NCBI RefSeq assembly: GCF_040782645.1
Contig: NZ_CP160403.1
Coordinates: 558,001 to 622,000, forward strand
Direction of reading: 5' to 3'
DNA from: Streptomyces sp. HUAS ZL42
Lineage (GTDB): Bacteria > Actinomycetota > Actinomycetes > Streptomycetales > Streptomycetaceae
DNA: 64,000 bases
The notes below the pieces were generated by a model. It had not been told where the DNA came from and made no database searches. It saw only the letters and a program-made list of their open reading frames with translations. The position numbers and the translations under genes are program-made. Positions 1,896-28,768 of this stretch are shown piece after piece (positions within the stretch are counted from its first letter, which is position 1; every line of letters starts with the position of its first letter).

Positions 1896-1899
1896 CCCT

Positions 1900-5926: not shown

Positions 5927-5932
5927 CCTGCC

Positions 5933-10230: not shown

Positions 10231-10800
10231 ATGCCGCACATCGCCATCGACAACGACGAGCCCGGGATCCGCGGGTTGATGACTCAGCGGCCGGACACGG
10301 CGGCCCCGCTCAGCCAGTTAGCAGAGACGCTCCTGCGCTCCCCCATGTCGCTCCCGCGCGGGGAGCGGGAGCTGATCGCCGCCTACGCGTCCCACCTCAA
10401 CTCCACGCCCTTCTGCTCCGGTTCACACGGGGCCTTCGCCGCCGCCCAGCTCGACGCCGGGCACACGGTCGTCGACGCCGTGCTCGCAAATCCGGACACC
10501 GCGCCGATCGCACCGCGGCTGCGGGCACTTCTGCTGATAGCAGCCGAGGTGTGCGGGCCGGTGCGGTCCCTCTCGGCCGACACGGTCGCCGCCGCGCGGG
10601 CGACCGGCGCCGACGACGCGCAGATCCACGACACCGTCCTGATCGCCGCCGCATTCTGCATGTACAACCGCTACGTCACCTGCCTCGACACCGAACTACC
10701 GGACAGGCCGGGCTACTTCGAGGAGGCGGCAAAGTGGATCGTCACCCAGGGATATGTCTCCGATACACCTGACGGCCCCGGCCCACGCCGCCGTGGTTAG
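10231..10800 (+). CDS. AhpD-like (carboxymuconolactone decarboxylase fold) protein
   Basis: A 189-residue small all-helical protein of the AhpD/peroxidase-related family. The family segment reads SLPRGERELIAAYASHLN then STPFCSGSHGAF; AhpD proper has CxxC followed by His two to three residues later, while here only the second Cys (in FCSGSH) is kept, so a disulfide redox cycle like that of AhpD is not expected. ATG at 10231 is preceded by GAAAGGAC at a good distance. It stands alone between a broken IS110 copy and a gene relic. A decayed second copy lies at 43399-43755 near the other end of the cluster. Its role is unknown; linkage to the enediyne locus is by position and by the duplicate. Confidence 0.75.
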   Translation: MPHIAIDNDEPGIRGLMTQRPDTAAPLSQLAETLLRSPMSLPRGERELIAAYASHLNSTPFCSGSHGAFAAAQLDAGHTVVDAVLANPDTAPIAPRLRALLLIAAEVCGPVRSLSADTVAAARATGADDAQIHDTVLIAAAFCMYNRYVTCLDTELPDRPGYFEEAAKWIVTQGYVSDTPDGPGPRRRG

Positions 10801-13821: not shown

Positions 13822-15195
13822 TCAGCCGCGCTGCACGGACATCCGCAGGCCGCCGCGCACCCGGAGCGAGAGCATCGGCTCGGGCACCACGGACGCGCCC
13901 TTCGGCAGCACCAGACGCAGTTCGCGCATGACCATCGCGATCACGAAGACCGCCTCCATCATTCCGAGGTGGTTTCCCACGCAGAAGCGCGGTCCGGCCC
14001 CGAAAGGAATGTATGCGTAGCGGGGACGCTGCGCGCGCCGCTGCCGGTCGAAGCGGTCCGGCTCAAAGCGGTCGGGCTGCTCCCAGAACGCGGGATGACG
14101 GTGCAACGTGTAGGGACACACCACCACGTCGGCTCCGGCCGGGATGTCGTATCCAGCGATGACATCAGGACCCTGAGCGATTCGGGAGAGCATCCAAACC
14201 GGCGGGTAGAGCCGCATGGTCTCCTCGACCACCATCGTCGTGTACGTCAGCCGTTGCAGGTCTCCGAACTCCGGCAGCCGGTCGCCGAGCACGCTCCGGG
14301 CCTCATCGCGCAGCCGCTCGACCACCTCGGGATTCTGATCTATGAGATGGAAGGCCCAGCTGAGGGTGCTGGCCGTAGTCTCGTGTCCGGCCAGCAGCAA
14401 TGTGACCAGCTCGTCGCGCAATCTGCGCCGCGCCACCCGCGGGTCCCGTTCGGCGTGCACGGATTCGAGCAGCCGGGAGAGCACGTCGTCCGTGTCTCCG
14501 CCGGAGCGCAACGCGCGGTGCGCCGCCAGCTGTTCGGTCACCTTCTGCAGCCGAGCTCGGGCGGCGCGGAAACGGAGCTGCTGGGGCAGCGGCAGGAACT
14601 GCGGGACCGCCCCGAGGGTGACGACCTCGAACATCGCCTGGTCCTGAACGGCCTCGAAGTCGTGGCCGATCGAGGTGTGACCGCTGAGGTCCTCGTCGAG
14701 CAGGGTGCGCCCGAGCACTCCCAGGGTCAGCTCGGTCATCTCCGCGGTGATGTCCACCGGCCCGGCCCCGGTTCTGGAGCGAAGTCGGCCGACCATCCGC
14801 GCCGCCTCCTCGGCCACGACCGAGGCCTGCGCCGCGATCCGCTTGGCCTGAAAGGCGGGCTGGATCACCCTGCGCTGTTCCCGCCAGAGCTCGCCCTCGC
14901 TGGTCAGCAGTCCGTCGCCGAGCGCCCGGCGGGCCTGGTGCAGGCCGATGCCCTTGTGGTAGTTCCCCGGGTTGTCGGTGAGCACGTACTTGGCGTAGTC
15001 GGGATGGTTGAAGAAGTAGAGCGTCTTGGGGCCGATCGCGACCCGCACGGCATCGCCGTAGCCGTCCGCGGCCGTGCGCATCAGTGCGAGCCGGTCGCGC
15101 AGCAGCATGTTGAGCAGCTTGAAGGTGGCGAATCGGGAGGGTCCGGGCGGGACCCGCCGCCGTGTCCCGGTCGCTCGGGCCTGGGTGACGGTCAC
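13822..15195 (-). CDS. Cytochrome P450 (enediyne E7-like candidate)
   Basis: Haem monooxygenase of 457 residues. The I-helix reads LLAGHETTAS, the K-helix ExxR is in EETMRLYPPVW (~residue 323), and the haem loop is FGAGPRFCVGNHLG with Cys405 as axial ligand. Its GTG start lies 3 bases after the DUF1702 gene stop, with GGAGGA inside the end of that gene, so it is the last gene of the leftward enediyne run. Nine-membered enediyne loci carry a P450 called E7 in this set; position and company suggest that role, but the substrate is not visible from sequence. The overall look (FEVVTLGAVPQFLPLPQQ) is closer to the long-chain/CYP102-CYP110-like bacterial P450s than to macrolide hydroxylases. Confidence 0.9.
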   Translation of the reverse strand: MTVTQARATGTRRRVPPGPSRFATFKLLNMLLRDRLALMRTAADGYGDAVRVAIGPKTLYFFNHPDYAKYVLTDNPGNYHKGIGLHQARRALGDGLLTSEGELWREQRRVIQPAFQAKRIAAQASVVAEEAARMVGRLRSRTGAGPVDITAEMTELTLGVLGRTLLDEDLSGHTSIGHDFEAVQDQAMFEVVTLGAVPQFLPLPQQLRFRAARARLQKVTEQLAAHRALRSGGDTDDVLSRLLESVHAERDPRVARRRLRDELVTLLLAGHETTASTLSWAFHLIDQNPEVVERLRDEARSVLGDRLPEFGDLQRLTYTTMVVEETMRLYPPVWMLSRIAQGPDVIAGYDIPAGADVVVCPYTLHRHPAFWEQPDRFEPDRFDRQRRAQRPRYAYIPFGAGPRFCVGNHLGMMEAVFVIAMVMRELRLVLPKGASVVPEPMLSLRVRGGLRMSVQRG

Positions 15196-15198
15196 TGC

Positions 15199-16173
15199 TC
15201 AGTCCTCCGCACCGGGGGCTAGCCGCTCGGCGATCCGGCAGCGCCAGACCTCGTAGGCCGGCGTGCCGTCGTCCACGCAGGGATCGGGCAGCGACTCCTG
15301 GCAGACGAGCATGGCCTGCTCGGGAGTGGTGCCGCACAGCACGTCGGTGGCCAGCACGGTGTGCTCGTTGCCCAGCCCCGCCTCGAGGCGCGCGGTGGCG
15401 GCGAACGCAGAACCCTGGGCGACCCATTGCCGGTGCTTCCCGGCCCGCTCCTGGAGGAGCTGCAGTTCTGCCTTGCCGGCGCCCCCGGCGTACGTGGCGG
15501 CCAGTCCGGCCCCCGCGTACAGGTCCGCGTGCCGTTCCTCGGAGAACGAATCGATCATTGAAGTGATCCGCTCGACGTCCGTCCCGCCGACGAACCACAT
15601 GGCACGGCCGATCCCCTGGTCGATGACCCGGTCGGCGTACCAGGACCACTGGACGCCGGGCCAGGGGAAGTGGGGCTCCTGATACTGTCCGCGCACGTAC
15701 TTGTCGGTGCGAAAGTACGCCTGGTGGAAGCCGTAGCCATCGAGCACGAGCCAGCGCAGCAACGGGTCGGCGGTGTACATCCGGGACCAGCGGAACCGCG
15801 GTATCCTGGCCATGGCCCAGCCCACTCCCACATAGACCATGTACGCGTGTTTCGCGGCCTCGCCACGCAAGAAGTGCTCCACGTGCCGGTTGCCGCCGAT
15901 CGGCAGCCCGTCGCGCACCGCCATCCCCATGGCGGCACCCTCGTACGCGAACCCCCGGAACTGTGGCGGCACGGTCTCGAGTTGGACCTCGGCATCCGCG
16001 GTCGAGGAGGCCGCGGCAGCGTAGGCGTAGCCGGTCAGGAAGGACGCACCGACCGTTTCGAGCCGTTCTCGTGCCTCGGGACTCTTCTCGTGGAAGCCGC
16101 GGGTGGACAGCTTCGTCTCGTTCATGCTCGGGGTCAGCAGGCGGCTGCGGAGCCGGCCGAACTGATTCGCCAT
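15199..16173 (-). CDS. DUF1702 enediyne-associated protein (E2-like)
   Basis: A 324-residue DUF1702 protein. The family is known almost only from enediyne loci and has no proven biochemical role. The family segments FRGFAYEGAAMGMAVRDGL, YMVYVGVGWAMARIPRF, LDGYGFHQAYF, DQGIGRAMWFVGG and ERHADLYAGAGLAATYAGGA are all present. No membrane span or cofactor motif is evident. The ATG has AGGAG just upstream and begins 2 bases after the stop of a second DUF1702 gene; the two are clear paralogues in tandem, as in nine-membered enediyne clusters. The P450 follows after 3 bases. I number it E2-like only by its order. Confidence 0.88.
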   Translation of the reverse strand: MANQFGRLRSRLLTPSMNETKLSTRGFHEKSPEARERLETVGASFLTGYAYAAAASSTADAEVQLETVPPQFRGFAYEGAAMGMAVRDGLPIGGNRHVEHFLRGEAAKHAYMVYVGVGWAMARIPRFRWSRMYTADPLLRWLVLDGYGFHQAYFRTDKYVRGQYQEPHFPWPGVQWSWYADRVIDQGIGRAMWFVGGTDVERITSMIDSFSEERHADLYAGAGLAATYAGGAGKAELQLLQERAGKHRQWVAQGSAFAATARLEAGLGNEHTVLATDVLCGTTPEQAMLVCQESLPDPCVDDGTPAYEVWRCRIAERLAPGAED

Positions 16174-16175
16174 CT

Positions 16176-17174
16176 CTACTCCTCGTGGGAAGGGGCGACG
16201 ACCGCGCTCATGAAGTGCGCGCGGATGTTCCGGCGCCACAGCTCGTACTGCGGCACGGGGCCGGTGCCGGTGTGCTCGACCTCGGTGCGGTCGGCCAGAT
16301 CCACGGCCTCGTCGATGACCAGTCCGGTCAGCTCGAACGCGGCCGTGACCGTGTGCTCGGGCACCAACTCCGCGTAGTGCCTGGCCTTGATCGCGAATAC
16401 CGCGCCGATCGCGAGGTCTGCGGCGTAGCCGGCCCGGGCGGCCGTGTCCCGCAGCCCGGCGAGCTCCGTGGCCGTCGCGCCGCCCGCGAACGTCGCAGCG
16501 AGACCGACGCCGCTCCAAAGGTCGGCCCGCCGGTCCTCGGTGAAGCGCCCCACGGCCGCGGCCACCGCGGGGGCGCGGCCGCCGTGGATGAACCACAGCG
16601 CGCGTCCGATCCCCTGGTCCACGGCCCGCAGGAAGTACCCGGGATGCCCGTCCCACGGGTACGGGGCGGGCCGGTGCTGCCCGTCGACCCACCGTGCCGT
16701 GTCGAAGTACGCGCGGTCGAAGCCGTACCCGTCGACGGCCAGCCAGCTCATCGTGGGGTGGAAAGGGATTTCGCCGAGATCGGGCAATACCTTGCGCCAC
16801 AGCGGACGAGGCAACCGTGCCATGGCGAAGCCGATGCCGATGTAGGCCAGGAAGAAGTGCGGGCGGCCGGATCCGAGAATCAGCTCCCTGGTCCGATGCC
16901 CGCGCACCGCGTCGCGCACGGTGAACGCCATGACGGCCCCCTCGTACGCGAACCCTCGCAACTCAGGTTCGACCATCGCCAGCCGCCGTTCGACCTCCGC
17001 AGTCCCGCGGGTCTCGATGCCCCATTCGAAGCCGACGGCCACCGACTGGGGAATCGCCTCAAGCCGCGCCGTGGCCGGCGTCGGTGTGACCGGAAATTCC
17101 CGGCCGGCGAAGCTGACCGAGTGCAGCGAAGGGGCGAGCAGAAGCCTGCGCAACGAACCGAGCGGGGTGGCCAT
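16176..17174 (-). CDS. DUF1702 enediyne-associated protein (UnbL/E3-like)
   Basis: A 332-residue paralogue of the next gene. Matching landmarks are LRGFAYEGAVMAFTVRDAV, FLAYIGIGFAMARLPRPLW, VDGYGFDRAYFDTARW, DQGIGRALWFIHGG and RRADLWSGVGLAATFAGGA. It starts with ATG at 17174 after GGGAGAG. It is the first gene after a ~490-base gap with a strong hairpin, so it may have its own promoter and head a three-gene unit (DUF1702, DUF1702, P450). The function of UnbL/E3 proteins in warhead assembly is unresolved; they are thought to act after polyene release. Confidence 0.88.
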   Translation of the reverse strand: MATPLGSLRRLLLAPSLHSVSFAGREFPVTPTPATARLEAIPQSVAVGFEWGIETRGTAEVERRLAMVEPELRGFAYEGAVMAFTVRDAVRGHRTRELILGSGRPHFFLAYIGIGFAMARLPRPLWRKVLPDLGEIPFHPTMSWLAVDGYGFDRAYFDTARWVDGQHRPAPYPWDGHPGYFLRAVDQGIGRALWFIHGGRAPAVAAAVGRFTEDRRADLWSGVGLAATFAGGATATELAGLRDTAARAGYAADLAIGAVFAIKARHYAELVPEHTVTAAFELTGLVIDEAVDLADRTEVEHTGTGPVPQYELWRRNIRAHFMSAVVAPSHEE

Positions 17175-17565
17175 CTGGCAACTCTCCCTTGGCTGTCGGT
17201 CTCGACGGTCCGGTCCGGGCCGATTTCGCCTCGAACACCTCTGTCAGGCATCATCGCAACCGTCCGGGCGGGCCAGCCACTTCCGGAGTGCGCCGTCGCC
17301 ACCGGCCCGGAAGACCCGCAACGGCTGTGGGCGCTGTCGGCATCCTGGCCCCGGCCGTAGGCGGATACGACGTCGCTGCCCTGCAGCGGCAGGCGGCGGG
17401 TCGATTCCCGTTACCCGACGGTGCCCGGCGATCTGGCGGACCCTGCCTGGTGACCTGAGACAGAAGGTCGTCGTTGGATCTGCTCGGCGGTCCACTCCGA
17501 AACCCGACGTACAGCGCCGCAGTCGCCGGAGCGCTCGCTGACCATCAGGCCGCTCGAACGCAACA

Positions 17566-17603
17566 CCGGCCTTCACCGCCCCGAACCGGGCGGTGAAGGC
17601 CGG
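17566..17603 (-). terminator. 16-bp hairpin after the flavin reductase gene
   Basis: Perfect 16-bp inverted repeat (CCGGCCTTCACCGCCC / GGGCGGTGAAGGCCGG) with a 6-base loop, 65 bases beyond the flavin reductase stop. It divides the leftward enediyne run into two parts. No gene is visible in the rest of 17175-17668. Confidence 0.8.
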
Positions 17604-17668
17604 CGCCACACTCGGCAGCCTCTCCCGACCGTGTCCCCGCCGGCAGGAAACAGTCCCTGCCATGAGCG

Positions 17669-18220
17669 TCAGACGGAGAGCCGGTGGAAGCCGCCGCCGA
17701 AGTACAACAGCGGGTCGTCGGTCTCCTTGCGCCCGATGTCGAGCACCGAGCCCAGGAAGATCGAGTGGTCGCCGCCGTCGTAGACCGCCGCAAGACTGCA
17801 TTCCAGCCATGCCTGCGCGTCGGCCAGGACGGGAGTTCCGGTGTGCTGTCCGGGCGTGGTGTCGACCGTCTCGAACTCACGTGGACCTCGTGGCCTGCTG
17901 CGGTCCGCGAAGTACTTGGCCACGTCCTGCTGATGGCCTGAGAGGACCGAGACCGCGAAGGCCTCCTCCGTCAGGATCACGTCGTGGACCGCTGCCGTGC
18001 GCCCCACGCACACCAGGATCAGCGGTGGTTCGAGCGAGACGGAGGTGAAGGAGTTCGCGGTCATGCCTCGGGGGGTGTCCCGGCCCGCGGTGAGGACGGT
18101 GACCCCAGTGGCGAAGCGTCCCAGCACGCCGCGCAGTTCGCTGAGGACGTGATCCGGCCGCGGCAGGTCGGCCACACACAGGGGGCGATGACGTGGCTTC
18201 AGCCGGTCTGCGGTGGTCAT
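17669..18220 (-). CDS. Flavin reductase (enediyne E6-like)
   Basis: A 183-residue NAD(P)H:flavin oxidoreductase of the short-chain flavin reductase (HpaC/ActVB) family. Residues ~30-180 include LGRFATGVTVLTA, RGMTANSFTSVSLEPPLILVCV and CSLAAVYDGGDHSIFLGSV, the usual FMN/FAD-binding pattern. Such enzymes supply reduced flavin to a partner oxygenase; C-1027-type clusters contain one called E6, whose partner is a flavin-dependent monooxygenase. Possible partners here are the acyl-CoA-dehydrogenase-like flavoprotein at 49435 or an enzyme outside the window. The ATG overlaps the thioesterase stop by 4 bases (ATGA), implying coupled translation with TEBC. Confidence 0.9.
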   Translation of the reverse strand: MTTADRLKPRHRPLCVADLPRPDHVLSELRGVLGRFATGVTVLTAGRDTPRGMTANSFTSVSLEPPLILVCVGRTAAVHDVILTEEAFAVSVLSGHQQDVAKYFADRSRPRGPREFETVDTTPGQHTGTPVLADAQAWLECSLAAVYDGGDHSIFLGSVLDIGRKETDDPLLYFGGGFHRLSV

Positions 18221-18690
18221 GTCCTGGCCCCGCTCGTCGTGTCGACGAGTTGTACACCTTGCCGCGCCGAGTAGGGCGCCAGCGCAGTGCGTAGCGCCTC
18301 CGGCACCCGGGCCGGACGGGTGTCGTTGTTCGGGCCGCGCATGCACGCGATCCGTTGCTGTCCCCGAGCCACAAGGTCCTCGGTTCCGTCCTGCCGCACG
18401 CGGACGTAGTCGAAACTGAAGGCCACCTGGGTCTGAGTCAGGTCGTCGAGGCGCATGCGGATCGACAGCTCGTCGAACGCCGTGATCTCCGCAAAGAACT
18501 CGCAGTCGACCTTGAGGGTGAAGAGTTTCAGGTCGTCCTGGATGTCCGCGAGCACGTCGGGCGCGTGGTCCCGCAGGAACATCTCACGGCACCGCCCCTG
18601 CCAACGAAGGTAGTTGACGTAGTAGACGTTGCCGACCAGGTTGGTGTCCTCGAAACCGACCAGGTGGCGGTACTCGTAGTACGGCTGCAT
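18217..18690 (-). CDS. Enediyne hot-dog thioesterase TEBC (E10-like)
   Basis: A 157-residue single hot-dog-fold thioesterase that releases the polyene from the enediyne PKS. The family start YYEYRHLVGFEDTNLVGNVY and YVNYLRWQGRCREMFL are intact. Like CalE7/DynE7 it lacks the acidic catalytic residue of ordinary 4-hydroxybenzoyl-CoA thioesterases; Asn17 and Arg35 sit where the structurally studied members use Asn and Arg. The ATG is 2 bases after the PKS stop with GGAACGA upstream, and its own stop overlaps the flavin reductase ATG. Family identity with the enediyne TEBC clade is clear from both sequence and its place directly after the PKS. Confidence 0.95.
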   Translation of the reverse strand: MQPYYEYRHLVGFEDTNLVGNVYYVNYLRWQGRCREMFLRDHAPDVLADIQDDLKLFTLKVDCEFFAEITAFDELSIRMRLDDLTQTQVAFSFDYVRVRQDGTEDLVARGQQRIACMRGPNNDTRPARVPEALRTALAPYSARQGVQLVDTTSGART

Positions 18691-18692
18691 CG

Positions 18693-21600
18693 TCAGTCGT
18701 TCCTCTCCATGGTCTGCGCCATGAGCGCGAAGACAACGGGATCGCCGGCCCCTTCCAGGACGGTTGGGAAGGTCGCGATCCGGGCCGCGCCCGAGCGCAG
18801 CACCACCCAGTGCTTCTCCGCCCCGGGCGTGCTGTCGACCGTGAGTGCCGTGAGTGCGCGGCCGTTCTTGCGCAGACACTCGATCGCGCTCCACACCCTG
18901 GTGGCCGCGACGGACAACTCTTCGTCGTGCTCGGTCGCGATCAGCCGGGCGAGGGCGGTTCCCTCCGGCCCCAGCAGCCCCTCCCATTCCTCGAGGGAGC
19001 GGGGCTCGGCCGGCTGTACGTCGCAGGCCACCGGTGTCTCGCCGGCCACCACGAAGGTCACCCCTGCGCCGTGCGAGGCGGAGACCTGCGGCCCGCCCGC
19101 GACCTCGGGCCTGCCGTCCGGACGGTAGGCCACCACCGTCTGACGGCCCAGGGCCCAACTGGCTGCCTGTGCCGTGGACTTACGGCGTGCAGCCAATCCT
19201 TCCGCGGGTGCCTCGTCGTCGGGCCGCACGACGCAGCGTACGGCCTCGGGCAGAAGCCGCTCGGCGCGACGCTCCAGGTAAGGGCCGAGCAGAGCGGGCT
19301 GCCAGGGCCCGGTTCCGTCCTGCTTGCGTACCGCCTGCAGAACCAGCCCCTCCCAGCGTTCGACCAGCATGCCCGACTGGTCGCGGACGTCGAGGTTGTA
19401 GACGTAGGTGTCGCCGGTGCGGGAGCGCTCTCGCGCGTGCAGCGTCACCTGCTTCTCGTCGCGCGCGGCGGTGGGGTCGGTCAGGTGGAGGCGCTCGATG
19501 CTCACCGGGAGCAGCGTGGCGTCCGGCACGCAGCACTGGATCGAGTGCATCAGAGCGTCCCGGGTTCCCGGGTCGGCCAGTACGAGTTCGGCAGGCAAAT
19601 GCCGCGCGAACCAGGGGAGCGTGGCCGCGTCGGAGATCTCCGCGACACACTCCCTGGCGGCCAGTTCCCGGTAGCCGACGAGGCGTTGGAAGCGCAGCCC
19701 TTGGAAGAGGACCGGTCCGTAGAGGTCGCGTGCGGGATCCAGCGGGATCCGCGGTGCGTCGTCGGGGACGGGTGCGGGCCCGGTGTCCTCCGGCTCCGGG
19801 CAGTCGTAGCGGAGCGTGGCGCGGAAGTGGTCGGCCTGGAAGCCGGTCTCGCTGCTGCGGATGACGGCCCGTACTGCACCGACATTCTCGGCCAGCACCG
19901 CGACCCTGATGGTGGTCTGCCCGTCCGGAGGTATGACGATCGGGCGCAGGAACTCCACGTCCACCAGCGTTGGTGTGCCCTCGAACCCCGTGAGCGCCGT
20001 AGCCGCCTGGGCCATGGCCTCCATGCCGAGGACCGCCGGGAACAACAGGTCGCCGTCGAGCTCATGGTCGGCCAGGTAGGGGTCACCCGAGGCGCTCAGG
20101 TCGGAGTCGACGACCAGTTCGATGCCCGGATAGTGGGCTTGCGGGCGGTCGACGAAGCGCAGCAGCGGGAGGTCGGCTGTCTCGAGTGTCAGCGTCGGCA
20201 GGCCGCCGGCACGTCCCATCACGACCAGGGCGGACGGCGTCTGCGGCTCGGCGAGCAACTGCTTGAGCAGGGCCACGCCCTCCTCGGTGGGGATCGGCTC
20301 GATCCCCTCCCGGACCAGCGACTCCAGCACGCCGAGCCGCTCGCCCATCCCGGACCCGGACCACACGGACCACTCCAGAGCGATGCACCGGCAGTTGGGG
20401 TGGTCGTTCTGAACCTGCTGGGTCAGGTCGGTGAGCCAGTCGTTGGCGGTGGCGTAGTCCCCCTCGCCGCGCAGGCCGGCCCGGCCGATGATGCTGCCGA
20501 AGGTGACGAGGAGCCGCAGGGCCGCCGGATCAACCGCGGTGAGCACGTTCTCCAGGCCGGTGATCTTCGTGGCGAGGGTGCGGCGGAACGACGCCTCGTC
20601 CAGGTTGGCGAGTGCGTGCGGTTCGTTGCGCCCCGCGCCGTGAAGCACGGCGGTGACCGGCCCGAGCGCATCGCGGATCTCGTCGACCGCCGCCTTGACC
20701 TCGTCGGCGGACGTGACATCGGCGCTCACGTAGCGGAAGTTGACACCCGCCGCGGTCATCCGGCGGAGGTTGGCCCGCAGTTCGGGATCGGTGGCCGGGT
20801 CCGATCGGCCGAGCAGACCGACACCGGCTCCGGTACCCGCGGCGAGGGCGAGGGCACATTCGGCGGTGATGCCCTTGCCGCCGCCGGTCACCAGCAGGAC
20901 GTCCTCGGTGTCGAGCGCGTGCTCCGCCCCGGAGGTCGCGCCACTCACACCGGCCGGGGAAGCGAGCGGCAGCGCACGCAGCACGGGCACGGTGCGGCGG
21001 TCGTCCGCCCCGTAGTGGACCTCGCTGAACCCACTGGTCGCCGAGACGTCGGTGACGATGCGGGCGCTCAGTTCCCGTGCGCGTTCCGCCGGCATCCGGT
21101 CCGGCAGTGGCAAGGTGACCACCGTGGTCGCGATACGCGGTGCCTCCAGGTGCAGAGTCTTTGCCAGGCCCGCCGCACCCCGCCGGTCACCGACCGCGAC
21201 GAACCGGGAGGCGCCGGTGCGGGACAGCGCGGCACGGGCAGCGGCGATCATGAGCGCCGTGTGGTTCTCGTCGCAGTCCCTGGGCAGGCACAGCAGCACG
21301 CCGTCGCCGAGCCCCCCGATGCGCAGTGCCTCGTGGAGCGCGGGCGCGAGCGGGTGCCGTTCGGGTGCGAACAGCTCCCAGTCCCCGTCGCCGGCGGACT
21401 CGGGTACGGTCGCGGGGCCCGGCTCCGCCGGCACCAGATCGACGGCGAAGGCCCGTACCCACGGGGCCACGCCCAGGGGCACCTGGGGCTGTGCCGCATC
21501 GCCATTGGCCGTCTCGTCCAACCCGTCCAGCAGTTCCGCGAGCTCGGCCAGCGTGGAGGTGGCGAACGCCGTGGTCACCATCGGTGCGGTGATGCCGAGT

Positions 21601-24584
21601 TCCTGGGCGGCGCGGTTCATGATCTGAGCCACGGTGATGGAGCTCAGATGCAGCTCATCGAGTGGGTTGCTGTGCGGGTCGACTGCCTCCAGGGGCAGTT
21701 CGGCACGCTCCGCGGCCAAGCGCAGGACCACCGAGAGGCTGTCGCGGTCCCCGGCCACTGCGGCGGCCGGCAGCTCGTCTGCCGGAACGGAGACAGGCGG
21801 TGCGTCCAAGCGCACGTCGGCGAAGGACAGATCGACTTCGGGAGTCGACTCACACGGGCTGGCGAAGAAGCGGAACTCCTTGTCCAGGGGCAACGGCCGG
21901 GTGAAGCGGTCCTGGAACAGCGCGGCGTGCCGCAGGCGCGCGCCGAGGGTGTACGCGGCCGCGGTCGCGGTCAGCAGTCCGGACAGAGAAGTGCTGTCCG
22001 CGTCGAGCGAGACGACGGGCACGCCGGGGGCGATGTCCGCGACCAGGCCCTGCAGGATTTTCCCCGGGCCGACCTCAAGCAGCAGGTCCACCTCCGTGGA
22101 CAGGGTCTGGACCGCCTCGGCGAAACGCACCGGCTCCAGCACCTGTCGGGTCAGCAGCTCCGGCACATCGGTGTCGGCCGTGACCTCGCCCGCCGTCACC
22201 GTGGAGATCATGCGACGGGCCAGCGGGGCGAACTCCTGTGTCCGCAGGTAGGCCCCGAAGCCTTCGGCCGCGGGGGCGACGGCCTCGGAGTGGAACGCGT
22301 GCGAGACATTGATCGCCGCCGTGCCCAGGCCCTGGGCGGAGGCGGCGGCGCAGACTCGCTGGACGGCGTCCGCCGGTCCGGAGATCACGGTCTGCCGGGG
22401 ACCGTTGTAGCCGGCGACCACGACCGGTTCCCCGGCCAGCAGCGGTTCGACGTCGGCGGGAGGAGCCGCGATGCCCGCCATGCCTCCACCGCCCTCGCTC
22501 GCCTCCGCCATGAGCCGGCCGCGCTCCGCGGCGATCCGCAGCACCGAGGCTTCGTCCATCGCTCCGGCCCAGTGCAGGGCGGTGACTTCACCGAGGCTGT
22601 GTCCGGCCGCAACCACCGCCTCGATACCCAGAGTGGAAAGCACCCGCAGGGCGGCGAGGGAGGAGGTGACGATGCGCGGCTGCGCCACTGCGGTGTCGAC
22701 CTGGTCGCCGTCGGTGGGCAGCGGGTGCGCGCGGTACAGCTCGTCTACCGAGGTGAAGCGTCGGCGTATCGCACCGCCGTCGCCCCGTCGGCCGGCGCCC
22801 TGGCCGGGGAAGAGGAACCCGATGCGGGCATGTGGCGTCGCGCTGCCCAGGAACACCCCTCCCGCGATGTCGAGCGCCGACCGTGCCCCGCCGTCCAGCA
22901 GCGTGAGCAGCTTGGTGAAGCGCTGCTCCGCCTGTTCCGGGGTGGCCGCGACGACGGCGGCCCGGATCGGCCGGCCGTCGAGGTCGCTTTGCAGCGTGGC
23001 GGCAAGGTCGCCGAGTTCCGCGAAGGACAGTCTCGGGACGAAAGCGGCCAGGCGGGTGGCCTTGCCGCGCAGCTCGGCCATCGTCTCGGCGTCGAGCAGC
23101 AGCAGCTCCACGTCCTGCCGGGACCGAACAAGCTGTCGGGTGACCCGGCCGACGGCCTCCTTGCGCACTCCGTCGGCGTGTTCGACCACGATGTGCGCAT
23201 TGATACCGCCGAACCCCATGGAGGAGACACCCGCGCGGATGGGGGCATCCTTGGGCCACAGCTCCGCCTCGCTGGGGACTCGCAGGGCCGGCCGGTCGCC
23301 GGTGAGTTCGGGATGCGGGTCCACATGACTGGTCGCGGGCGGAATGACCTGGTGGCGTACGGCGAGGACGGCCTTGATGAGCCCGGCGACCCCTGCCGCC
23401 GCCTTGGTGTGCCCGAAGTTGCCCTTCACCGTGCTGATGGCGGCGGGCGCCGCGTCCGGGTCGGCGGCCCGGCGCGATTCCGAGAAGGCGCGCAGCTCGG
23501 TGGCATCGCCCACGGCGGTACCAGTGCCGTGACCTTCGAAGTAGCCCACCGTTTCGATGCCGAACCCGGCGGCGGCATAGGCGCGCTGCAGGGCGAGGCG
23601 GTGTCCGCCGGCCTCGGGCCGGGTGATCCCGCCGCGGCCGTCGGAGGAGTAACCCCAGCCGGCGACGCTCGCATACCGGAACCTGCCCTGCGCGACAGCG
23701 TCCTGGTCGCGCATGAGCACGAGCATGCCGCAGCCCTCGCCGGGCCAGAAACCGTTGGAACCACGGTCGTAGACGCGCATCTCACCGGTGGCGAGAGCAC
23801 CCGTCTTGGCGAACCCAATCACTTCGAAGGGGTCGATGCTGAGGTCCACACCGCCGACGACGGCGACGTCGAGCCGTCCGTCGGCCAGGGCGTCGCATGC
23901 GGTGGCGACGGAGAGCAGCGACGAGGAGCAGGCCCCGTCGACGGTGAACCCACCGCCCTTGAGGTCGAAGTGGTTGCAGATCCGTCCGGCGATGGTGTTG
24001 GCGAGACCGCCGGCCAGGGTGTCCTCGCCAATCGGAGGGAAGGGACTCTTGTAGCGCTCCTCGAGTTTTTCCAGGAACACGGCCAGGGTGGCGTCGTCCC
24101 AGCCCTGCTCGCGCAGCGCCGCTGCGACGGTGCGGCGCACATAGGGCCAGCGCAGCCGCATCAGGTTGGCCCGGCTGAACTCGCCGGTGAGGGTGTTGCC
24201 GATGATGACCCCGGTGTTGAGGTCGCCGAGGCCCTCCCCGAAGGGGAAGCCGGCGTCCTCGAGGGCCTGTGCGGCGGTGTCGAGCGCGAGCCAGTGCGTC
24301 ATGTCGGTGGCGCGGAAGGTACTGCCCGCGACCCGGTACTTGACCCGGTCGAACTCGAAGCCGTCCAGGACGGCGGCCTTGCTGGAGTAGAAGCGGTCCG
24401 GAGCCGCGGAGTCGGGCGAGTAGTAGTCCTCGGCGCGCATCCGCTCGTCCGGCAGCCGGCGGAAGGCCCGTCGGCCGGCCAGGACGTTCTGCCACAGCTG
24501 CTCATGGGTGTCCGCGTCGGGGTAACGGCAGGCGATGCCGACGACGGCGATCCCGGCGGGGTGGGTACGGGAGGAGGACGTCAT
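18693..24584 (-). CDS. pksE: Enediyne iterative type I polyketide synthase
   Basis: The defining gene of the locus, 1963 residues. Domains in order: KS (~10-430; DGACSSSLLS with Cys219, and HGTGTAVGD), AT (~560-850; GHSLGE with Ser663), an ACP (~930-1000; LHLSSI, phosphopantetheine Ser about 982), KR (~1225-1440; VTGGGKGITAECALALAAG), DH (~1490-1700; ADHELDGDLLFPAVLG), and a C-terminal phosphopantetheinyl transferase-like region (~1820-1960; VACDVQPAEP, then a W-IE-L-K pattern). There is no ER or terminal TE. This is the PKSE architecture that makes a linear polyene from acetate and malonate units and activates its own ACP. The ATG at 24584 overlaps the UnbU stop (ATGA). An upstream in-frame start would add 38 residues inside unbU and is unlikely. 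Whether the warhead is nine- or ten-membered cannot be read from the PKS alone by eye. Confidence 0.97.
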   Translation of the reverse strand: MTSSSRTHPAGIAVVGIACRYPDADTHEQLWQNVLAGRRAFRRLPDERMRAEDYYSPDSAAPDRFYSSKAAVLDGFEFDRVKYRVAGSTFRATDMTHWLALDTAAQALEDAGFPFGEGLGDLNTGVIIGNTLTGEFSRANLMRLRWPYVRRTVAAALREQGWDDATLAVFLEKLEERYKSPFPPIGEDTLAGGLANTIAGRICNHFDLKGGGFTVDGACSSSLLSVATACDALADGRLDVAVVGGVDLSIDPFEVIGFAKTGALATGEMRVYDRGSNGFWPGEGCGMLVLMRDQDAVAQGRFRYASVAGWGYSSDGRGGITRPEAGGHRLALQRAYAAAGFGIETVGYFEGHGTGTAVGDATELRAFSESRRAADPDAAPAAISTVKGNFGHTKAAAGVAGLIKAVLAVRHQVIPPATSHVDPHPELTGDRPALRVPSEAELWPKDAPIRAGVSSMGFGGINAHIVVEHADGVRKEAVGRVTRQLVRSRQDVELLLLDAETMAELRGKATRLAAFVPRLSFAELGDLAATLQSDLDGRPIRAAVVAATPEQAEQRFTKLLTLLDGGARSALDIAGGVFLGSATPHARIGFLFPGQGAGRRGDGGAIRRRFTSVDELYRAHPLPTDGDQVDTAVAQPRIVTSSLAALRVLSTLGIEAVVAAGHSLGEVTALHWAGAMDEASVLRIAAERGRLMAEASEGGGGMAGIAAPPADVEPLLAGEPVVVAGYNGPRQTVISGPADAVQRVCAAASAQGLGTAAINVSHAFHSEAVAPAAEGFGAYLRTQEFAPLARRMISTVTAGEVTADTDVPELLTRQVLEPVRFAEAVQTLSTEVDLLLEVGPGKILQGLVADIAPGVPVVSLDADSTSLSGLLTATAAAYTLGARLRHAALFQDRFTRPLPLDKEFRFFASPCESTPEVDLSFADVRLDAPPVSVPADELPAAAVAGDRDSLSVVLRLAAERAELPLEAVDPHSNPLDELHLSSITVAQIMNRAAQELGITAPMVTTAFATSTLAELAELLDGLDETANGDAAQPQVPLGVAPWVRAFAVDLVPAEPGPATVPESAGDGDWELFAPERHPLAPALHEALRIGGLGDGVLLCLPRDCDENHTALMIAAARAALSRTGASRFVAVGDRRGAAGLAKTLHLEAPRIATTVVTLPLPDRMPAERARELSARIVTDVSATSGFSEVHYGADDRRTVPVLRALPLASPAGVSGATSGAEHALDTEDVLLVTGGGKGITAECALALAAGTGAGVGLLGRSDPATDPELRANLRRMTAAGVNFRYVSADVTSADEVKAAVDEIRDALGPVTAVLHGAGRNEPHALANLDEASFRRTLATKITGLENVLTAVDPAALRLLVTFGSIIGRAGLRGEGDYATANDWLTDLTQQVQNDHPNCRCIALEWSVWSGSGMGERLGVLESLVREGIEPIPTEEGVALLKQLLAEPQTPSALVVMGRAGGLPTLTLETADLPLLRFVDRPQAHYPGIELVVDSDLSASGDPYLADHELDGDLLFPAVLGMEAMAQAATALTGFEGTPTLVDVEFLRPIVIPPDGQTTIRVAVLAENVGAVRAVIRSSETGFQADHFRATLRYDCPEPEDTGPAPVPDDAPRIPLDPARDLYGPVLFQGLRFQRLVGYRELAARECVAEISDAATLPWFARHLPAELVLADPGTRDALMHSIQCCVPDATLLPVSIERLHLTDPTAARDEKQVTLHARERSRTGDTYVYNLDVRDQSGMLVERWEGLVLQAVRKQDGTGPWQPALLGPYLERRAERLLPEAVRCVVRPDDEAPAEGLAARRKSTAQAASWALGRQTVVAYRPDGRPEVAGGPQVSASHGAGVTFVVAGETPVACDVQPAEPRSLEEWEGLLGPEGTALARLIATEHDEELSVAATRVWSAIECLRKNGRALTALTVDSTPGAEKHWVVLRSGAARIATFPTVLEGAGDPVVFALMAQTMERND

Positions 24585-25576
24585 GCGGCCACCGCCTCGC
24601 TCGTGGTCTTGTCGCCGAGCGCCGTGCTCGGACCCCCGGCATGGTCGCTCCCGGAGGTCCCCGAGGCGTTCCGGCGCTGGACGAGGTGGGCGACCCACCA
24701 GCCGATGCCGCGCAGTGCGCAGACCGCGGTGGTGGCGAAGAAGAGGGTGTAGACGACGTTGAAGAGCATCATGATGCCGTAGACGGTGGCGACGGACGCC
24801 CCGAAGACGAACTGGTTGCGCCCCTTGGTGGGGGTGGTGCCCGGGTCAGTGATCATGTAGTTGGTGAACAGGACGAAGGCCACACCGCTCATCGGTCCGA
24901 GCGCGGAGGCCAGGGCCACGTCCCAGAACCAGTGCCGGATCAGGGCCTGGATCACGAAGCCGCCGAGCCAGCCGACGATCAGTGCGGTCCGCTTCGTGAG
25001 CGCCGTGTTGATGATCGTTCCGGCGGTGGCGATGATCAGCGGGATCGCCACCCGGAAGAACGTGTTGGCGTTCTCGGTGAACTCGTAGGGCGGCGCGATG
25101 CTCACCCATGATCCGAAGCAGACCAGCGAGAGGGTGATCCCGAAGTTGGACGGGTTCATGTAGTGCCGCATACGGCCCGCGATGGGGGCCTGCAGCGCGT
25201 GCTTGCCCGCGACACCCACGAACACCCCGAAGAGCACCGGCAGGATCTGGTTGTTCGCGTACAGCAGCATGTTCACGGCCAGTGCCGTGATGTGGGATGG
25301 CAGGAGGAACTCGTAGACGCCGCGGAATCCGCTGCCCAGGAAGCGCGGCGAGCGGCGCTGGGCCCAGGCGCTCAGCAGCTCGAGGAGGATCTCGGTCGTG
25401 TAGCCGGTGACGGCCGCGATGATGGGCCACAGCCATGGCTGCTCGAAGCCGAGCACGCTGTACCCGATAATGTTGAACACGCTCATCGAGATGGCGAAGT
25501 TGCGCAGCGCGAGGTAGCGCGGGTCGCGCTTGGCCGCCGGCGGGGCACCGGCTGGTGAAGAGGCAACGGCGGTCAT
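24581..25576 (-). CDS. unbU: UnbU enediyne membrane protein (E5-like)
   Basis: A 331-residue polytopic membrane protein with about nine hydrophobic spans, of the UnbU family conserved beside enediyne PKS genes. Landmarks: LALRNFAISMSVFNIIGYSV, EFLLPSHITALAVNMLLYAN, MRHYMNPSNFGITLSLVCFG and VLFTNYMITDPGTTPTKGRN. The MNPSNFGI and MITDPGTTP stretches resemble those of RnfD/NqrB-type electron-transfer membrane subunits, hinting at an origin in a redox membrane complex (inference from pattern only). The last ~45 residues are polar and disordered. The ATG overlaps the UnbV stop and its stop overlaps the PKS ATG, so the three are coupled. Confidence 0.93.
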   Translation of the reverse strand: MTAVASSPAGAPPAAKRDPRYLALRNFAISMSVFNIIGYSVLGFEQPWLWPIIAAVTGYTTEILLELLSAWAQRRSPRFLGSGFRGVYEFLLPSHITALAVNMLLYANNQILPVLFGVFVGVAGKHALQAPIAGRMRHYMNPSNFGITLSLVCFGSWVSIAPPYEFTENANTFFRVAIPLIIATAGTIINTALTKRTALIVGWLGGFVIQALIRHWFWDVALASALGPMSGVAFVLFTNYMITDPGTTPTKGRNQFVFGASVATVYGIMMLFNVVYTLFFATTAVCALRGIGWWVAHLVQRRNASGTSGSDHAGGPSTALGDKTTSEAVAA

Positions 25577-27558
25577 CGGTTGGCAACCTCCTGCGCGGTG
25601 TCGGTCAGCATGAACGTGTGAGTGCCGGGGGTGAGCTTCTGGGTCGTGCGGTGCCTTCCGCCGTCCGCGTCCCGCCACGACAGTTCCACGGTTGCCGGCC
25701 CGTGGTACGAGCCGAGTCCGAAGTGCACGTCGAAGCTGCGGAAACCGCTGTGACCGCCGCCGCCGTCGAGCTGGGAGACCTGGGTGCCGGCGGGCGTCGT
25801 GACCTTGACGGTGGCGCCGTAGGCGGGCGCGCCGGTGTTCGCGATGCCCTTGCCCGCGTCCTGGCCGGAGCCGGCAGCGGGCCGGTACAGGCGCAGGCCG
25901 AGGTACTGGCCCTTGTCGGCGGCCTGGTTGGCGTAGAAGGCCGGCGGGCCCCACTGTCGCGCGACGGCGAAGTCGAGAGTGCCGGTCCCGGTGGTGTCCC
26001 CGGTGGCGAGCGCCCGGCTGGGGATTTTCACGTCCAGCCCCAGCTGCTTGGACACGTTGGCGTACTTTCCGCTCTCGGTCCGCGCGTAGAAGCCGAGTAT
26101 GTCGTCGCCGGCGATGTCGTCACCGGGCTGGACGTTGGGCCACATGGCCGGGTTGGACAACAGGTCGTCGTTGGTCATGGCCATCTCCTGCAGCCAGGGC
26201 CAGCGGTCGATCTCGCCCTTCACGAAACCGGTGGCCTGCAGGATCGACAGCTCGCCGTTGTTGAGGAAGTCGGCCATCTTGGTGTCCCAGCCCCAGCCGG
26301 TCCAGGCGACACCGTGCTGCTGTGCCTCCTGTGTGAACGGCGCCTCGCCGGCGGCCAGCTTGCGGGCCATGTCGGCCTCGTTCCTGGCTTTGTTCATCCA
26401 GAGGAAGTTGCTCTCCTCCAGGCCCCAGTCGACGGTGATGTTGCTGACCATCATGTCGAAGCGGCCGTTGTGGTCGACGTCGGCGAAGTCGATTCCCATG
26501 CCCTTGAAAGAGCCCTTGCCGAGCACGAAGGACTTGGGCGTGGTCGGCGTGCGCTTCCCGGTGGCCTCGGTGTACTTGATGTGCCCGGGGGTCGACCGGT
26601 TGTAGAGCAGGTGGTCGTGGCCGAAGTCGTTGGCGACGTACATCTCGGGCAGGTCGTCGCCGGTGAGGTCGGCCCCGGAGATCGCGAGCGTCCAGCCGAT
26701 GGACGCATCGTAGGGGATGGCTTCCTTCTCCTCCACGAAGGAGACGGTGGGTTCGTCGCCGGTGCTCGCGCCCGTCCAGCGCAGGACGTGGTCGCCGCCG
26801 GCGTTCTTCGAGTTGGACAGCGAGTCGTTCATTCCCACGTTGTCGAGACCCCGCGGGTCGAGCACGTCCGAGTCCCGGAAGTAGTTCCCCACCACGATCG
26901 ACGGGTGTCCGCTACCGTCCAGGTCGCCGACGTAGAGCGCGTCGGTGTTCCAGCGGGGGCCGTGGTACGCGCCGTCGGAGCTCTGCGTCGCCACCACCTC
27001 GCGTGGCACGTACGCGTCCGGCGACAGGGTGGTCGCACTCTCCTTGGCCATGAAGGCGATGGGGGTACGGCCCCAGTACGAGACCAACAGGTCCATCCTG
27101 CCGTCACCGTTGAAGTCGCCCGGGGCACAGCCGGTGGGTGCCATGGCGTCGTCCATCGGGAGCGGGGCCGCGTCGAGGACGAACGGAGTGAACCGGTCCT
27201 CCTTCACGGCGGTCGGCGTGTACGTCACGACGACCTGGTCGGTACGGGTGTCGACGATGCACATCCCGTCGGCCTTCCCATGGCCGATCAGGTCGTTGAC
27301 GGCTATCCCGGCGCCGACCGACGAGATCCAGGACCGTATCTTCTGATAGGCCGGATTTACCTTGCGAACCGAGTTCATATGTTGCGAGTTGTAGCCGGGC
27401 GGCAGCGCGATGGGCATTTCCTCGAACTTGTACCTGGTGGCTGCCTGGTCACCCCCGGCCACGGCGACGGAAGTCCGGACCGCAGAGAACAGGGACGCGG
27501 CCACCAGCAGTGTCACCACACCTGGCGTCATTCTGCGAAATCGCTCGCGTAGATTCAT
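25573..27558 (-). CDS. unbV: UnbV enediyne protein with FG-GAP repeats (E4-like)
   Basis: A 661-residue exported protein of the CRTAC1/UnbV family. Residues 1-36 are a signal peptide (basic start, TPGVVTLLVAASLFSAV core). The body has at least five FG-GAP/VCBS-like calcium-loop repeats: GDFNGDGRMDLLVS, GDLDGSGHPSIVVG, ADLTGDDLPEMYVANDFG, ADVDHNGRFDMMVSN and GDTTGTGTLDFAVAR, consistent with a beta-propeller. The C-terminal ~100 residues are the ASPIC/UnbV domain ending in HFGLGSYHGPATVELSWRD. The ATG at 27558 has GGGGGAG 4 bases upstream. It is the first gene of the PKS operon. An extracytoplasmic protein conserved in enediyne loci is notable; its job is unknown. Confidence 0.93.
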   Translation of the reverse strand: MNLRERFRRMTPGVVTLLVAASLFSAVRTSVAVAGGDQAATRYKFEEMPIALPPGYNSQHMNSVRKVNPAYQKIRSWISSVGAGIAVNDLIGHGKADGMCIVDTRTDQVVVTYTPTAVKEDRFTPFVLDAAPLPMDDAMAPTGCAPGDFNGDGRMDLLVSYWGRTPIAFMAKESATTLSPDAYVPREVVATQSSDGAYHGPRWNTDALYVGDLDGSGHPSIVVGNYFRDSDVLDPRGLDNVGMNDSLSNSKNAGGDHVLRWTGASTGDEPTVSFVEEKEAIPYDASIGWTLAISGADLTGDDLPEMYVANDFGHDHLLYNRSTPGHIKYTEATGKRTPTTPKSFVLGKGSFKGMGIDFADVDHNGRFDMMVSNITVDWGLEESNFLWMNKARNEADMARKLAAGEAPFTQEAQQHGVAWTGWGWDTKMADFLNNGELSILQATGFVKGEIDRWPWLQEMAMTNDDLLSNPAMWPNVQPGDDIAGDDILGFYARTESGKYANVSKQLGLDVKIPSRALATGDTTGTGTLDFAVARQWGPPAFYANQAADKGQYLGLRLYRPAAGSGQDAGKGIANTGAPAYGATVKVTTPAGTQVSQLDGGGGHSGFRSFDVHFGLGSYHGPATVELSWRDADGGRHRTTQKLTPGTHTFMLTDTAQEVANR

Positions 27559-28046: not shown

Positions 28047-28691
28047 TCAACGGTCGGTACCGCCGCGGCGCCCCCTCAGCGCGGCGATCACCGCGTCCCG
28101 GTCCGCGCCGACGCTCACGAGAAGACCGGTCACCTGGGCTTCAAAACAGACATCCGCGTCGTAGGGCGCGACCAGGTAGCCCCCGAGTTCGAGGGTGACG
28201 AGACCGTGCAGCGCGACCCACATCTGATGGGCCACGAGGTACTCGTCACCGGTGTCCAACCTGCGCATCTCCATGCCGCGTTCCACCGCCCGCACCAGGA
28301 CGTTCAGTGTGTAGCGGCCATGCTGACGGTCCTCCTCGGTCAGCGAGAAGCCACCCAGGCTCGCACCGCCGAACATCACACCGTAGAGGTGGCGGTGCTC
28401 CAGCGCGTTGCGCCGGTATGCCGCCCCGAGGGCGCAGATGTCCGCGACCGGGTCCGACGACTCCCCCACGTCCCTCAGGCGTCGGTCAAGCAGTCGGAAG
28501 CCCTCCTGCACCATGGCTCTGACCAGGTCGTTCTTCCCCCCGAAGTGCGTGTACACCGCCGTCGTGGAGGTACCCACCGCCGCGGCCAGGCGACGTGTCG
28601 ACAGTGCGGCGGGGCCTTCTTCGGCAAGCAACTGTGCCGCAGCCTCGAGGAGTTGTACGCCAAGGGCTGGATTCGTCGTCCGTGGGCTCAC
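28047..28691 (-). CDS. TetR/AcrR-family repressor
   Basis: A 214-residue one-component repressor. The N-terminal helix-turn-helix reads LLEAAAQLLAEEGPAALSTR then RLAAAVGTSTTAVYTHFGGK, followed by a ligand domain of the TetR C-terminal WHG type (HQMWVALHGLVTLELGGYL). GTG at 28691 (VSPRTTNPAL) is chosen because AGAGGG lies 8 bases upstream; longer versions would overlap the operator. It is divergent from the carotenoid oxygenase, and overlapping palindromes in the 77-base gap are likely operators for both genes. Confidence 0.88.
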   Translation of the reverse strand: MSPRTTNPALGVQLLEAAAQLLAEEGPAALSTRRLAAAVGTSTTAVYTHFGGKNDLVRAMVQEGFRLLDRRLRDVGESSDPVADICALGAAYRRNALEHRHLYGVMFGGASLGGFSLTEEDRQHGRYTLNVLVRAVERGMEMRRLDTGDEYLVAHQMWVALHGLVTLELGGYLVAPYDADVCFEAQVTGLLVSVGADRDAVIAALRGRRGGTDR

Positions 28692-28725
28692 CGTTGACAC
28701 CCTCTCATGCCGGTGCGATTCTGGC

Positions 28726-28744
28726 GTAACGATGTTACATAACA
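28726..28744. promoter_or_regulatory. Overlapping palindromes, probable TetR operator
   Basis: GTAACGATGTTAC (28726-28738) is an inverted repeat with 5-bp arms; TGTTACATAACA (28733-28744) is a second one sharing TGTTAC. Both lie between the divergent TetR gene (start 28691) and the carotenoid oxygenase gene (start 28769), the usual place for self-regulation by a TetR protein. Confidence 0.65.
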
Positions 28745-28768
28745 GTGATTTCGTGAGGATGGACAGCG

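Follow-up and report, generated by a model that had tools for sequence, protein, structure and literature searches.

A probable hybrid enediyne operon, predicted to be of the nine-membered type, in Streptomyces sp. HUAS ZL42

The chromosome of Streptomyces sp. HUAS ZL42, a single-contig genome of 9.87 Mb, carries an enediyne core operon in the stretch of 64,000 nucleotides analysed here (NZ_CP160403.1, chromosome 558001-622000; "the window", whose numbering is used below). The operon lies on the minus strand at 13822-27519 in the order UnbV, UnbU, enediyne polyketide synthase (PKS; the enediyne enzyme is called PKSE), thioesterase (TE), flavin reductase, two DUF1702 proteins (types E2 and E3) and cytochrome P450, with a strong coding signal (coding statistics and Pfam). 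All the genes named for it in the original prediction were found, on one strand, with a KS-AT-ACP-KR-DH-PPT enzyme whose motifs are intact (PPT by motif). As a core gene set the operon is therefore complete, but it is not a unit in itself: the whole cluster appears to measure about 83 kb, from 13822 to ~97 kb, running into the two stretches that follow the window (L010 and L011). To our knowledge, the determinant of nine- versus ten-membered ring size in enediynes is still open; according to earlier work, the PKS does not decide it.

The core operon and its markers of ring class

13822-15195, minus: cytochrome P450 (PF00067, 2e-83), tail half of the operon; tree and approximately unbiased (AU) test join it to Actinospica, which carries E2
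15199-16173, minus: DUF1702 protein, E3-type (PF08012, 3.2e-132), on the E3 branch of the DUF1702 tree; joins Actinospica
16176-17174, start possibly 17042, minus: DUF1702 protein, E2-type (PF08012, 1.8e-116; E2 branch), nine-membered marker by a published rule
17175-17668, 494 bp: likely hybrid junction between the PKS half and the E2-E3-P450 tail, suggested by conflicting trees on either side and by the spacing in CB01249
17669-18175, minus: flavin reductase, SgcE6-like (PF01613, 2.6e-44; best PDB matches 4r82 and 4hx6, presumably SgcE6)
18217-18690, minus: TEBC/E10 thioesterase (best PDB match 4i4j, 'ACP-polyene thioesterase', 1.4e-71, which we take to be SgcE10 of C-1027; next CalE7, 1e-62, and DynE7, 7e-42)
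18693-24584, minus: PKSE, 1963 aa, KS-AT-ACP-KR-DH-PPT (Pfam domains KS, AT, ACP, KR and DH in order; motifs; trees)
24581-25576, minus: UnbU (E5-type), three hydrophobic stretches by hydropathy, no Pfam match, homologues in 66 of 74 enediyne loci
25573-27519, minus: UnbV (E4-type; PF07593 and FG-GAP PF13517)

The PKSE retains the KS cysteine in DGACSS, AT GHSLG, ACP LHLSS, KR GGKGITA and DH HELDGDLLFP, and its C-terminal stretch, which has no Pfam match, carries CDV and WSAIECLRK, which we take to be the motif of the PPT domain. The enediyne PKS cassette is defined as E3/E4/E5/E/E10 in PMC5181780, and all five genes, E3, E4 (UnbV), E5 (UnbU), E (PKSE) and E10 (TE), occur together in the window. 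Relatives of the PKSE are encoded in 74 loci of species genomes, 70 of which align over more than half the length in one piece, the best being those of Streptomyces sp. A1277 (91%), CB01249 (88%) and R302 (79%). A protein search returned at least 3720 relatives at E <= 1e-300, with 95% identity in Streptomyces sp. MUM 16J as the best among the matches listed. Such numbers exclude chance, and judged by its sequence the core is a genuine enediyne cassette of a very common kind.

According to PMC5181780, nine- and ten-membered products are predicted from the exclusive presence of E2 or R3, E2 and E3 form separate subfamilies, and strain CB01950 is predicted to be ten-membered. Because TnmR3 is an AarF/ABC1 protein in PMC9464397, a PF03109 gene near the core was taken as R3. 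The DUF1702 tree (88 rows, three short matches having been dropped) splits into a side of 55 rows, a side of 31 rows and two outliers; we named the larger side E3 and the smaller E2, since the single copy of CB01950, the strain predicted to be ten-membered in PMC5181780, falls on the larger. The window pair then consists of one E3 and one E2, scoring 179 and 648 bits with the E2 query. One long-branch row on the E2 side (L066_5959) is not backed as E2 by its bit scores. The AlphaFold model of the window E2 (pLDDT 89.6) is a compact, all-helical prediction that gave no PDB match at E <= 0.001, and D148-G149-x-G151-F152-D153 and D186-Q187-G188-x-G190-R191 are invariant in 26 sequences.

With the window E2 as query, E2-type genes (at least 329 bits) were found in 27 of 58 genomes, the other 31 having weaker matches (at most 236 bits) or none. 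ABC1 genes (PF03109; thresholds of 0.001, 1e-30 and 1e-20, among the matches listed at the first of these) lie at most 21 kb from the E3 gene in 15 genomes, all of them without E2 and CB01950 among them. None of the 27 genomes with E2 has ABC1 within 100 kb of the E2-bearing cluster on its contig, several of these genomes being fragmented or metagenome bins in which a linked R3 could sit on another contig. The window genome, searched alone, has 18 PF03109 matches, none of them in 558-662 kb. A homologue of the GMC oxidoreductase encoded at 33649 was detected at E <= 1e-150 (at most 26 candidates scored per genome) in 26 of 53 genomes, namely 26 of the 27 with E2 and none of the 26 without, and the sole genome with E2 and no such match is a metagenome bin. 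That E2 and the GMC oxidoreductase go together so closely in the 53 genomes searched is new here.

By class, the 74 loci comprise 41 with E2 (15 of them assigned because the locus has a DUF1702 pair, rather than by a genome-wide E2 search, and 14 not searched for ABC1), 15 with R3, 13 with neither and 5 unclassed; the PKSE rows L033 and L039 also have no class. The two-marker rule is thus incomplete, as 13 loci carry neither marker, among them those of R302 (L048) and of Micromonospora and Salinispora, which have E3 without E2 or a nearby ABC1, and one with no DUF1702 match (L021). In four genomes (G003, G053, G019 and G059) a locus different from the fetched one has ABC1 at most 16 kb from a DUF1702 gene, and these loci are likely further enediyne-type clusters; in G003 and G053, which carry E2, the two genes adjoin at this separate locus.

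The window has E2 and the GMC oxidoreductase and lacks R3, and with E2 present and R3 absent the rule makes it nine-membered in type. Ring size and product remain predictions, of which a nine-membered, possibly new enediyne is favoured. The original prediction had reached the same type from the DUF1702 pair, which is indeed one E2 and one E3 in a region, 558-662 kb, without ABC1. It had also enlisted the E6-like flavin reductase, which cannot serve this purpose, as homologues occur in 66 of the 74 loci, in both ring classes. Two points weigh against the assignment: the E2/R3 rule is a correlation drawn from few characterised clusters, and the equation of R3 with AarF/ABC1 goes back to TnmR3 in PMC9464397.

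Conflicting trees within the operon

The PKSE tree holds 68 rows including the window (7 of the 74 loci, with short PKSE frames, were left out); a careful tree was built from 30 of the 68 rows, and AU tests used 23-24 rows. In both PKSE trees the window, A1277 and CB01249 (the trio) group with R302 (100/100 in the 30-row tree), and then with Kitasatospora paracochleata, K. indigofera and Root107, all carrying R3 (95/94 in the 30-row tree; 98/99 in the AU-test set). Next to them stands the CB01950/S. clavifer group, which also carries R3 (99/99). The trees of UnbU, UnbV and the neighbouring RPE65 and TetR genes likewise place the trio with R302 and/or the R3-carrying Kitasatospora (support values between 75 and 100), and that of the flavin reductase places it inside a set of 17 rows otherwise made up of R3-carrying rows and R302 (99). 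A different picture emerges at the other end of the operon. In trees that include Actinospica, the trio joins it for P450 (99), E3 (97) and E2 (99), with 100/99 for P450 and 100/99.5 for E3 in the AU-test set; in the GMC tree, which does not contain CB01249, the window and A1277 join Actinospica (100/100).

The AU tests rejected a grouping of the PKSE with Actinospica (p-AU 4.4e-06) and, in the opposite direction, the Kitasatospora/R302 grouping for P450 (1.5e-05) and E3 (0.002). The Actinospica grouping was also rejected for the flavin reductase and UnbV (0.027 and 0.001). Per cent identities to R302, K. indigofera and Actinospica, respectively, run the same way: 79/76/68 for PKSE, 80/76/68 for UnbV and 83/77/63 for the flavin reductase, versus 67/65/72 for P450, 60/61/72 for E3 and none/none/86 for the GMC oxidoreductase. 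R302 and the three Kitasatospora strains resemble the window in the PKS half (PKSE, UnbU, UnbV, TE and flavin reductase, 71-84%) and in RPE65 (70-77%), but no E2-type gene and no GMC match at 1e-150 was found in the four genomes; ABC1/R3 adjoins the core in the three Kitasatospora and not in R302.

Because its two halves have conflicting family trees, the operon is likely hybrid. We consider it probable that a PKS half of ten-membered type (UnbV-UnbU-PKSE-TE) was joined in nature to a tail of nine-membered type (E2-E3-P450), in a cluster predicted to be nine-membered; the flavin reductase probably belongs to the PKS half. The simplest reading is a single recombination at about 17175-17668, between flavin reductase and E2, in an ancestor of the three Streptomyces-type clusters. 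The counterpart of this 494-bp spacer measures 72 bp between the gene models of CB01249. The likely hybrid origin of the operon is, like the marker pairing, new here. It also qualifies the likeness to C-1027 in the original prediction, which held for the nine-membered type but not for a self-contained C-1027-type unit.

Several observations weigh against a hybrid. For the flavin reductase and UnbV the best trees are not those with the Kitasatospora/R302 grouping, although the tests allow it (p 0.379 and 0.37). The TE tree, a phylogeny called for in the original prediction, proved uninformative, and the UnbU grouping is weak (75). First-pass trees of E3 and P450, without Actinospica, showed no split. 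The groups for the AU tests were picked after the first trees had been seen, which weakens their p-values. Finally, the closest relative beyond the trio, R302, lacks both E2 and R3 near its core and is therefore unclassed by the rule.

In the absence of any hybrid, a common ancestor would have carried E2, the window lineage would have kept the set by descent, and its R3-carrying neighbours would have lost E2 and the GMC oxidoreductase and gained R3. This is in keeping with the wide spread of E2 over the PKSE tree, where the label needs 6 changes versus 21.1 for shuffled labels, and with the occurrence of RPE65 in both classes within this PKSE clade. It fails to explain E3 and P450, because both exist in both classes and yet the window copies conflict with the PKSE, joining Actinospica instead of the PKSE neighbours (p-AU 0.002 and 1.5e-05), and we regard it as unlikely. 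That the locus is a silent or decayed remnant without product is quite improbable: IS110 pieces (8775-9898) and DDE transposases (41046-42347 and L010:11233-12123) would fit decay, but the core frames are intact and the counterpart blocks of A1277 are 84-94% identical in DNA.

A ten-membered product, as presumed for the PKSE neighbours, would suit the PKSE, UnbV and RPE65, all closest to R302 and the R3-carrying Kitasatospora clusters. Kinship of the PKSE is a poor witness, however. Forcing all PKSEs from E2-carrying loci into one clade cost 320 log units in the 30-row tree (p-AU 1.5e-36), so that descent of the PKSE and class markers do not go hand in hand. With E2 and the GMC oxidoreductase present and ABC1/R3 absent near the cluster, a ten-membered product seems very improbable. 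The PKSE phylogeny put forward in the original prediction does place the window enzyme among enediyne PKSEs, the point on which that reading had been staked beforehand, but it does not indicate ring class, the nearest classed PKSEs outside the trio being of the ten-membered type.

The hybrid of PKS half and tail, common to three strains, gives a short list of candidates for ring class, namely E2, the GMC oxidoreductase and DUF5987, with E3 and P450, and it is a warning that PKSE trees should not be used to predict ring class. It is possible, and we put it forward tentatively, that ring class is carried by a movable set (E2, E3, P450, GMC oxidoreductase and DUF5987) exchangeable against the PKS cassette, so that here a PKS half of ten-membered lineage might feed a nine-membered warhead with a new mandelate/nonribosomal peptide synthetase (NRPS) decoration.

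Periphery, extent and known relatives of the cluster

Beyond the operon, the window contains the following features.

28047-28799, minus: TetR regulator, divergent to RPE65 (PF00440; tree)
28769-30127, plus: RPE65/carotenoid-cleavage oxygenase (PF03055, 8e-103)
32043-33050, minus: MDMPI/DinB-type protein (PF11716; in 22 E2 loci, 1 locus with neither marker and 0 R3 loci)
33092-33652, plus: DUF5987 protein (PF19449, 1.4e-78, scored from a longer start at 32549)
33649-35301, plus: GMC oxidoreductase, nine-membered-type marker (PF00732/PF05199; tree)
35298-36401, plus: CMD-domain protein (PF02627)
39099-39950, plus: AraC regulator (PF12833)
43988-45478, minus: FAD-dependent monooxygenase-type protein (PF01494; A1277 93%, Haloechinothrix 74%)
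45959-47212, plus: second CMD-domain protein (PF02627 just below cut-off; not at the corresponding place in A1277)
47964-48764, minus: AraC regulator (PF12833; not at the corresponding place in A1277)
49435-50616, plus: acyl-CoA dehydrogenase family protein (PF08028; A1277 97%, Actinospica 75%)
50632-51096, plus: SgcJ-like SnoaL protein (TIGR02246; best PDB match 4i4k, labelled SgcJ, 6.4e-47), as the original prediction had it
52208-53125, minus: alpha/beta hydrolase (PF00561; A1277 89%)
53188-54645, minus: MFS pump, likely for export or self-protection (PF07690)
54761-55567, minus: 268-aa protein without Pfam match (A1277 84%, Actinospica 78%)
55601-57238, minus: MbtH fused to an SgcC5-type free-standing condensation enzyme (PF03621+PF00668)
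57291-58652, minus: second free-standing condensation enzyme (PF00668)
58728-59285, minus: AMP-binding C-terminal subdomain and carrier protein (PF13193+PF00550; 97.6% DNA copy of L011:2887-3444)
59456-60115, plus: DUF899 protein (PF05988; A1277 94%)
60219-61346, minus: alpha/beta hydrolase (PF00561)
61261-63066, plus: flavin monooxygenase-like protein (PF13738/PF00743)
63207-64000, plus: P450 running on into L010 (PF00067; synteny with A1277)

The TetR and RPE65 genes overlap divergently (28047-30127). In 27 of 53 genomes, belonging to both ring classes, an RPE65 oxygenase (at least 54% identity; split in two in G021) shares a contig with the enediyne core and lies close to it. Since carotenoid-cleavage oxygenases cut conjugated polyenes, the enzyme may act on the PKSE polyene or on shunt products of it; 'carotenoid oxygenase' is not mentioned in the openly licensed enediyne literature searched. 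DUF5987 was found, within the fetched flanks, in 26 E2 loci versus 0 R3 loci. The second CMD gene shares 66.9% DNA identity with the first over 729 bp. The condensation part of 55601-57238 has 4znm, presumably SgcC5, as its best PDB match (3.7e-108; next 1.6e-36). Its MbtH part, fused in frame, is copied from or shares its source with the MbtH gene L010:10851-11060 (88% DNA identity), and the A1277 alignment has a gap there. Inverted copies of the AMP-binding C-terminus with its carrier protein (PCP), at 58722-59354 and window-equivalent 86819-87450 (L011), are 97.6% identical here and 99.5% in A1277, while the same gene is ~86% identical across the two strains; being more alike within than between strains, the copies have apparently undergone gene conversion.

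The extent of the cluster past the window follows from A1277, where most genes from the P450 at 13822 to an SgcC-like gene at L011:12917 (~96917 in window numbering) have counterparts on one 164-kb contig (NZ_SSBI01000009.1). By Pfam, the part beyond the window first encodes the remainder of the P450, a flavin halogenase (best PDB match 3e1t), a luciferase-like monooxygenase, a two-module NRPS (A-PCP-C-A-PCP), MbtH, an HPPD/hydroxymandelate synthase family protein, an aminotransferase, an Asp/Glu-racemase-like protein and a GlcD-type FAD oxidase. Next along the cluster come a molybdopterin oxidoreductase, an aminotransferase, SDR, KASIII, 4-hydroxy-2-oxovalerate aldolase, acetaldehyde dehydrogenase, an O-methyltransferase, an A-PCP and an HpaB protein, the last with 4oo2 (1.6e-258), which we take to be SgcC of C-1027, as best PDB match. 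The HPPD-family protein (L010:12095-13168) is likely a hydroxymandelate synthase: its best PDB matches are 7yvv, presumably the R-hydroxymandelate synthase AcmP1, and 2r5v (1e-95), presumably HmaS, with the HPPD 1t47 at only 1.4e-53. This assignment is contested, and we hold it at likely, because the 4HPPD model TIGR01263 of NCBIfam passes its cut-off (332.8 versus 277); moreover, 7yvv is labelled HPPD.

PKSEs such as SgcE and CalE8 arm their own ACP and make a C15 polyene, which the thioesterase releases. In the pathway that we propose, the window PKSE would arm its ACP through the PPT domain and build such a polyene for release by the thioesterase, and E2, E3, UnbU, UnbV, P450, GMC oxidoreductase and DUF5987 would convert it to a bicyclic nine-membered core. 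The likely hydroxymandelate synthase, A-PCP, SgcC-type hydroxylase with flavin reductase, O-methyltransferase and flavin halogenase could supply a chlorinated methoxy-mandelate or phenylglycine unit on the carrier protein, phenylglycine instead of or beside mandelate being allowed by the FAD oxidase and aminotransferase. The SgcC5-type condensation enzyme would attach this unit, and the MFS protein would export the product.

Among the clusters compared, that of A1277 comes closest (PKSE 91%, GMC oxidoreductase 96%), but its blocks stand in rearranged order and it has no MbtH-condensation fusion. The 80 kb fetched from it hold no close counterpart of the second CMD and AraC genes (45959-48764), where its sequence runs on without a gap, nor of IS110, the L010:11233 transposase, a lectin-domain protein, the epimerase-type L010:18337 or several small frames. 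Its product is not named in the openly licensed literature searched. Actinospica durhamensis (L080, L105-L109) shares E2-E3-P450, the GMC oxidoreductase, DUF5987, the NRPS (75%), the SgcC-like protein (85%), the aldolase (85%) and, on the contig of its enediyne cluster, a large part of the periphery. Its PKSE, however, is only 68% identical, RPE65 is missing, and the hydroxymandelate-synthase-like gene is without a close counterpart (33%). In CB01249 the core, GMC oxidoreductase and DUF5987 are shared, but no close counterpart of the periphery was found within 110-270 kb of its contig.

With C-1027 (sgc, nine-membered) the cluster shares nearest structures, SgcJ and, presumably, SgcE10, SgcE6, SgcC and SgcC5. 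It differs in having no aminomutase (the sole PF00221 match in the genome is at 3.86 Mb), so that a C-1027-like beta-tyrosine unit is unlikely, and no neocarzinostatin-type apoprotein (an 876-aa frame at 5.71 Mb gives the sole match), and it has the hydroxymandelate-synthase-like gene instead. PMC8037709 describes amycolamycin (acm), a cycloaromatised enediyne with E2, whose p-hydroxyphenylpyruvate is turned into a chlorinated dimethoxymandelate, with A-PCP, hydroxylase, O-methyltransferase, halogenase and type II condensation enzyme. All these kinds of enzyme are present here by family and nearest structure, their substrates being predicted only. According to PMC8037709, acm also has a 6-methylsalicylate synthase and aminosugar genes; the window cluster has an NRPS arm and no second PKS, the PKSE being the only PKS match in 558-662 kb, and among the frames scanned, part of the total, a single epimerase-type gene (L010:18337-19377). 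That the cluster is C-1027, amycolamycin or a close copy is hardly credible on gene content (rather than DNA comparison with sgc or acm), for all the shared structures and the periphery resembling the acm list in PMC8037709: aminomutase, apoprotein and second PKS are missing, and a two-module NRPS, aldolase/acetaldehyde dehydrogenase/KASIII genes and a molybdopterin oxidoreductase are there instead. No description of this cluster or gene set was found in the openly licensed literature searched. The original suggestion that the product may be new is favoured, and judging from the periphery the compound would differ from those already described.

The epimerase-type gene has counterparts of 69-70% near the R302 and K. 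indigofera cores, the A1277 and CB01249 stretches having yielded none, and is perhaps another relic of the R3-side lineage. A ricin-B-type lectin-domain protein (L010:1816-3132) lies inside the cluster, with no counterpart in the A1277 stretch. At 1-8607 the window encodes a GH10-GH62 two-domain protein, an A-PCP-acyltransferase fusion and a solute-binding ABC transporter set, with no close counterparts in enediyne loci. The CMD-domain protein at 9874-10800, separated from the core by an antiporter gene, is 74% identical to one adjoining RPE65 in the TSRI0107 enediyne cluster. The IS110 transposase at the left edge (8775-9898) is split over two frames, and of the two DDE transposases inside the cluster (41046-42347 and L010:11233-12123) the first also occurs in A1277 and CB01249.

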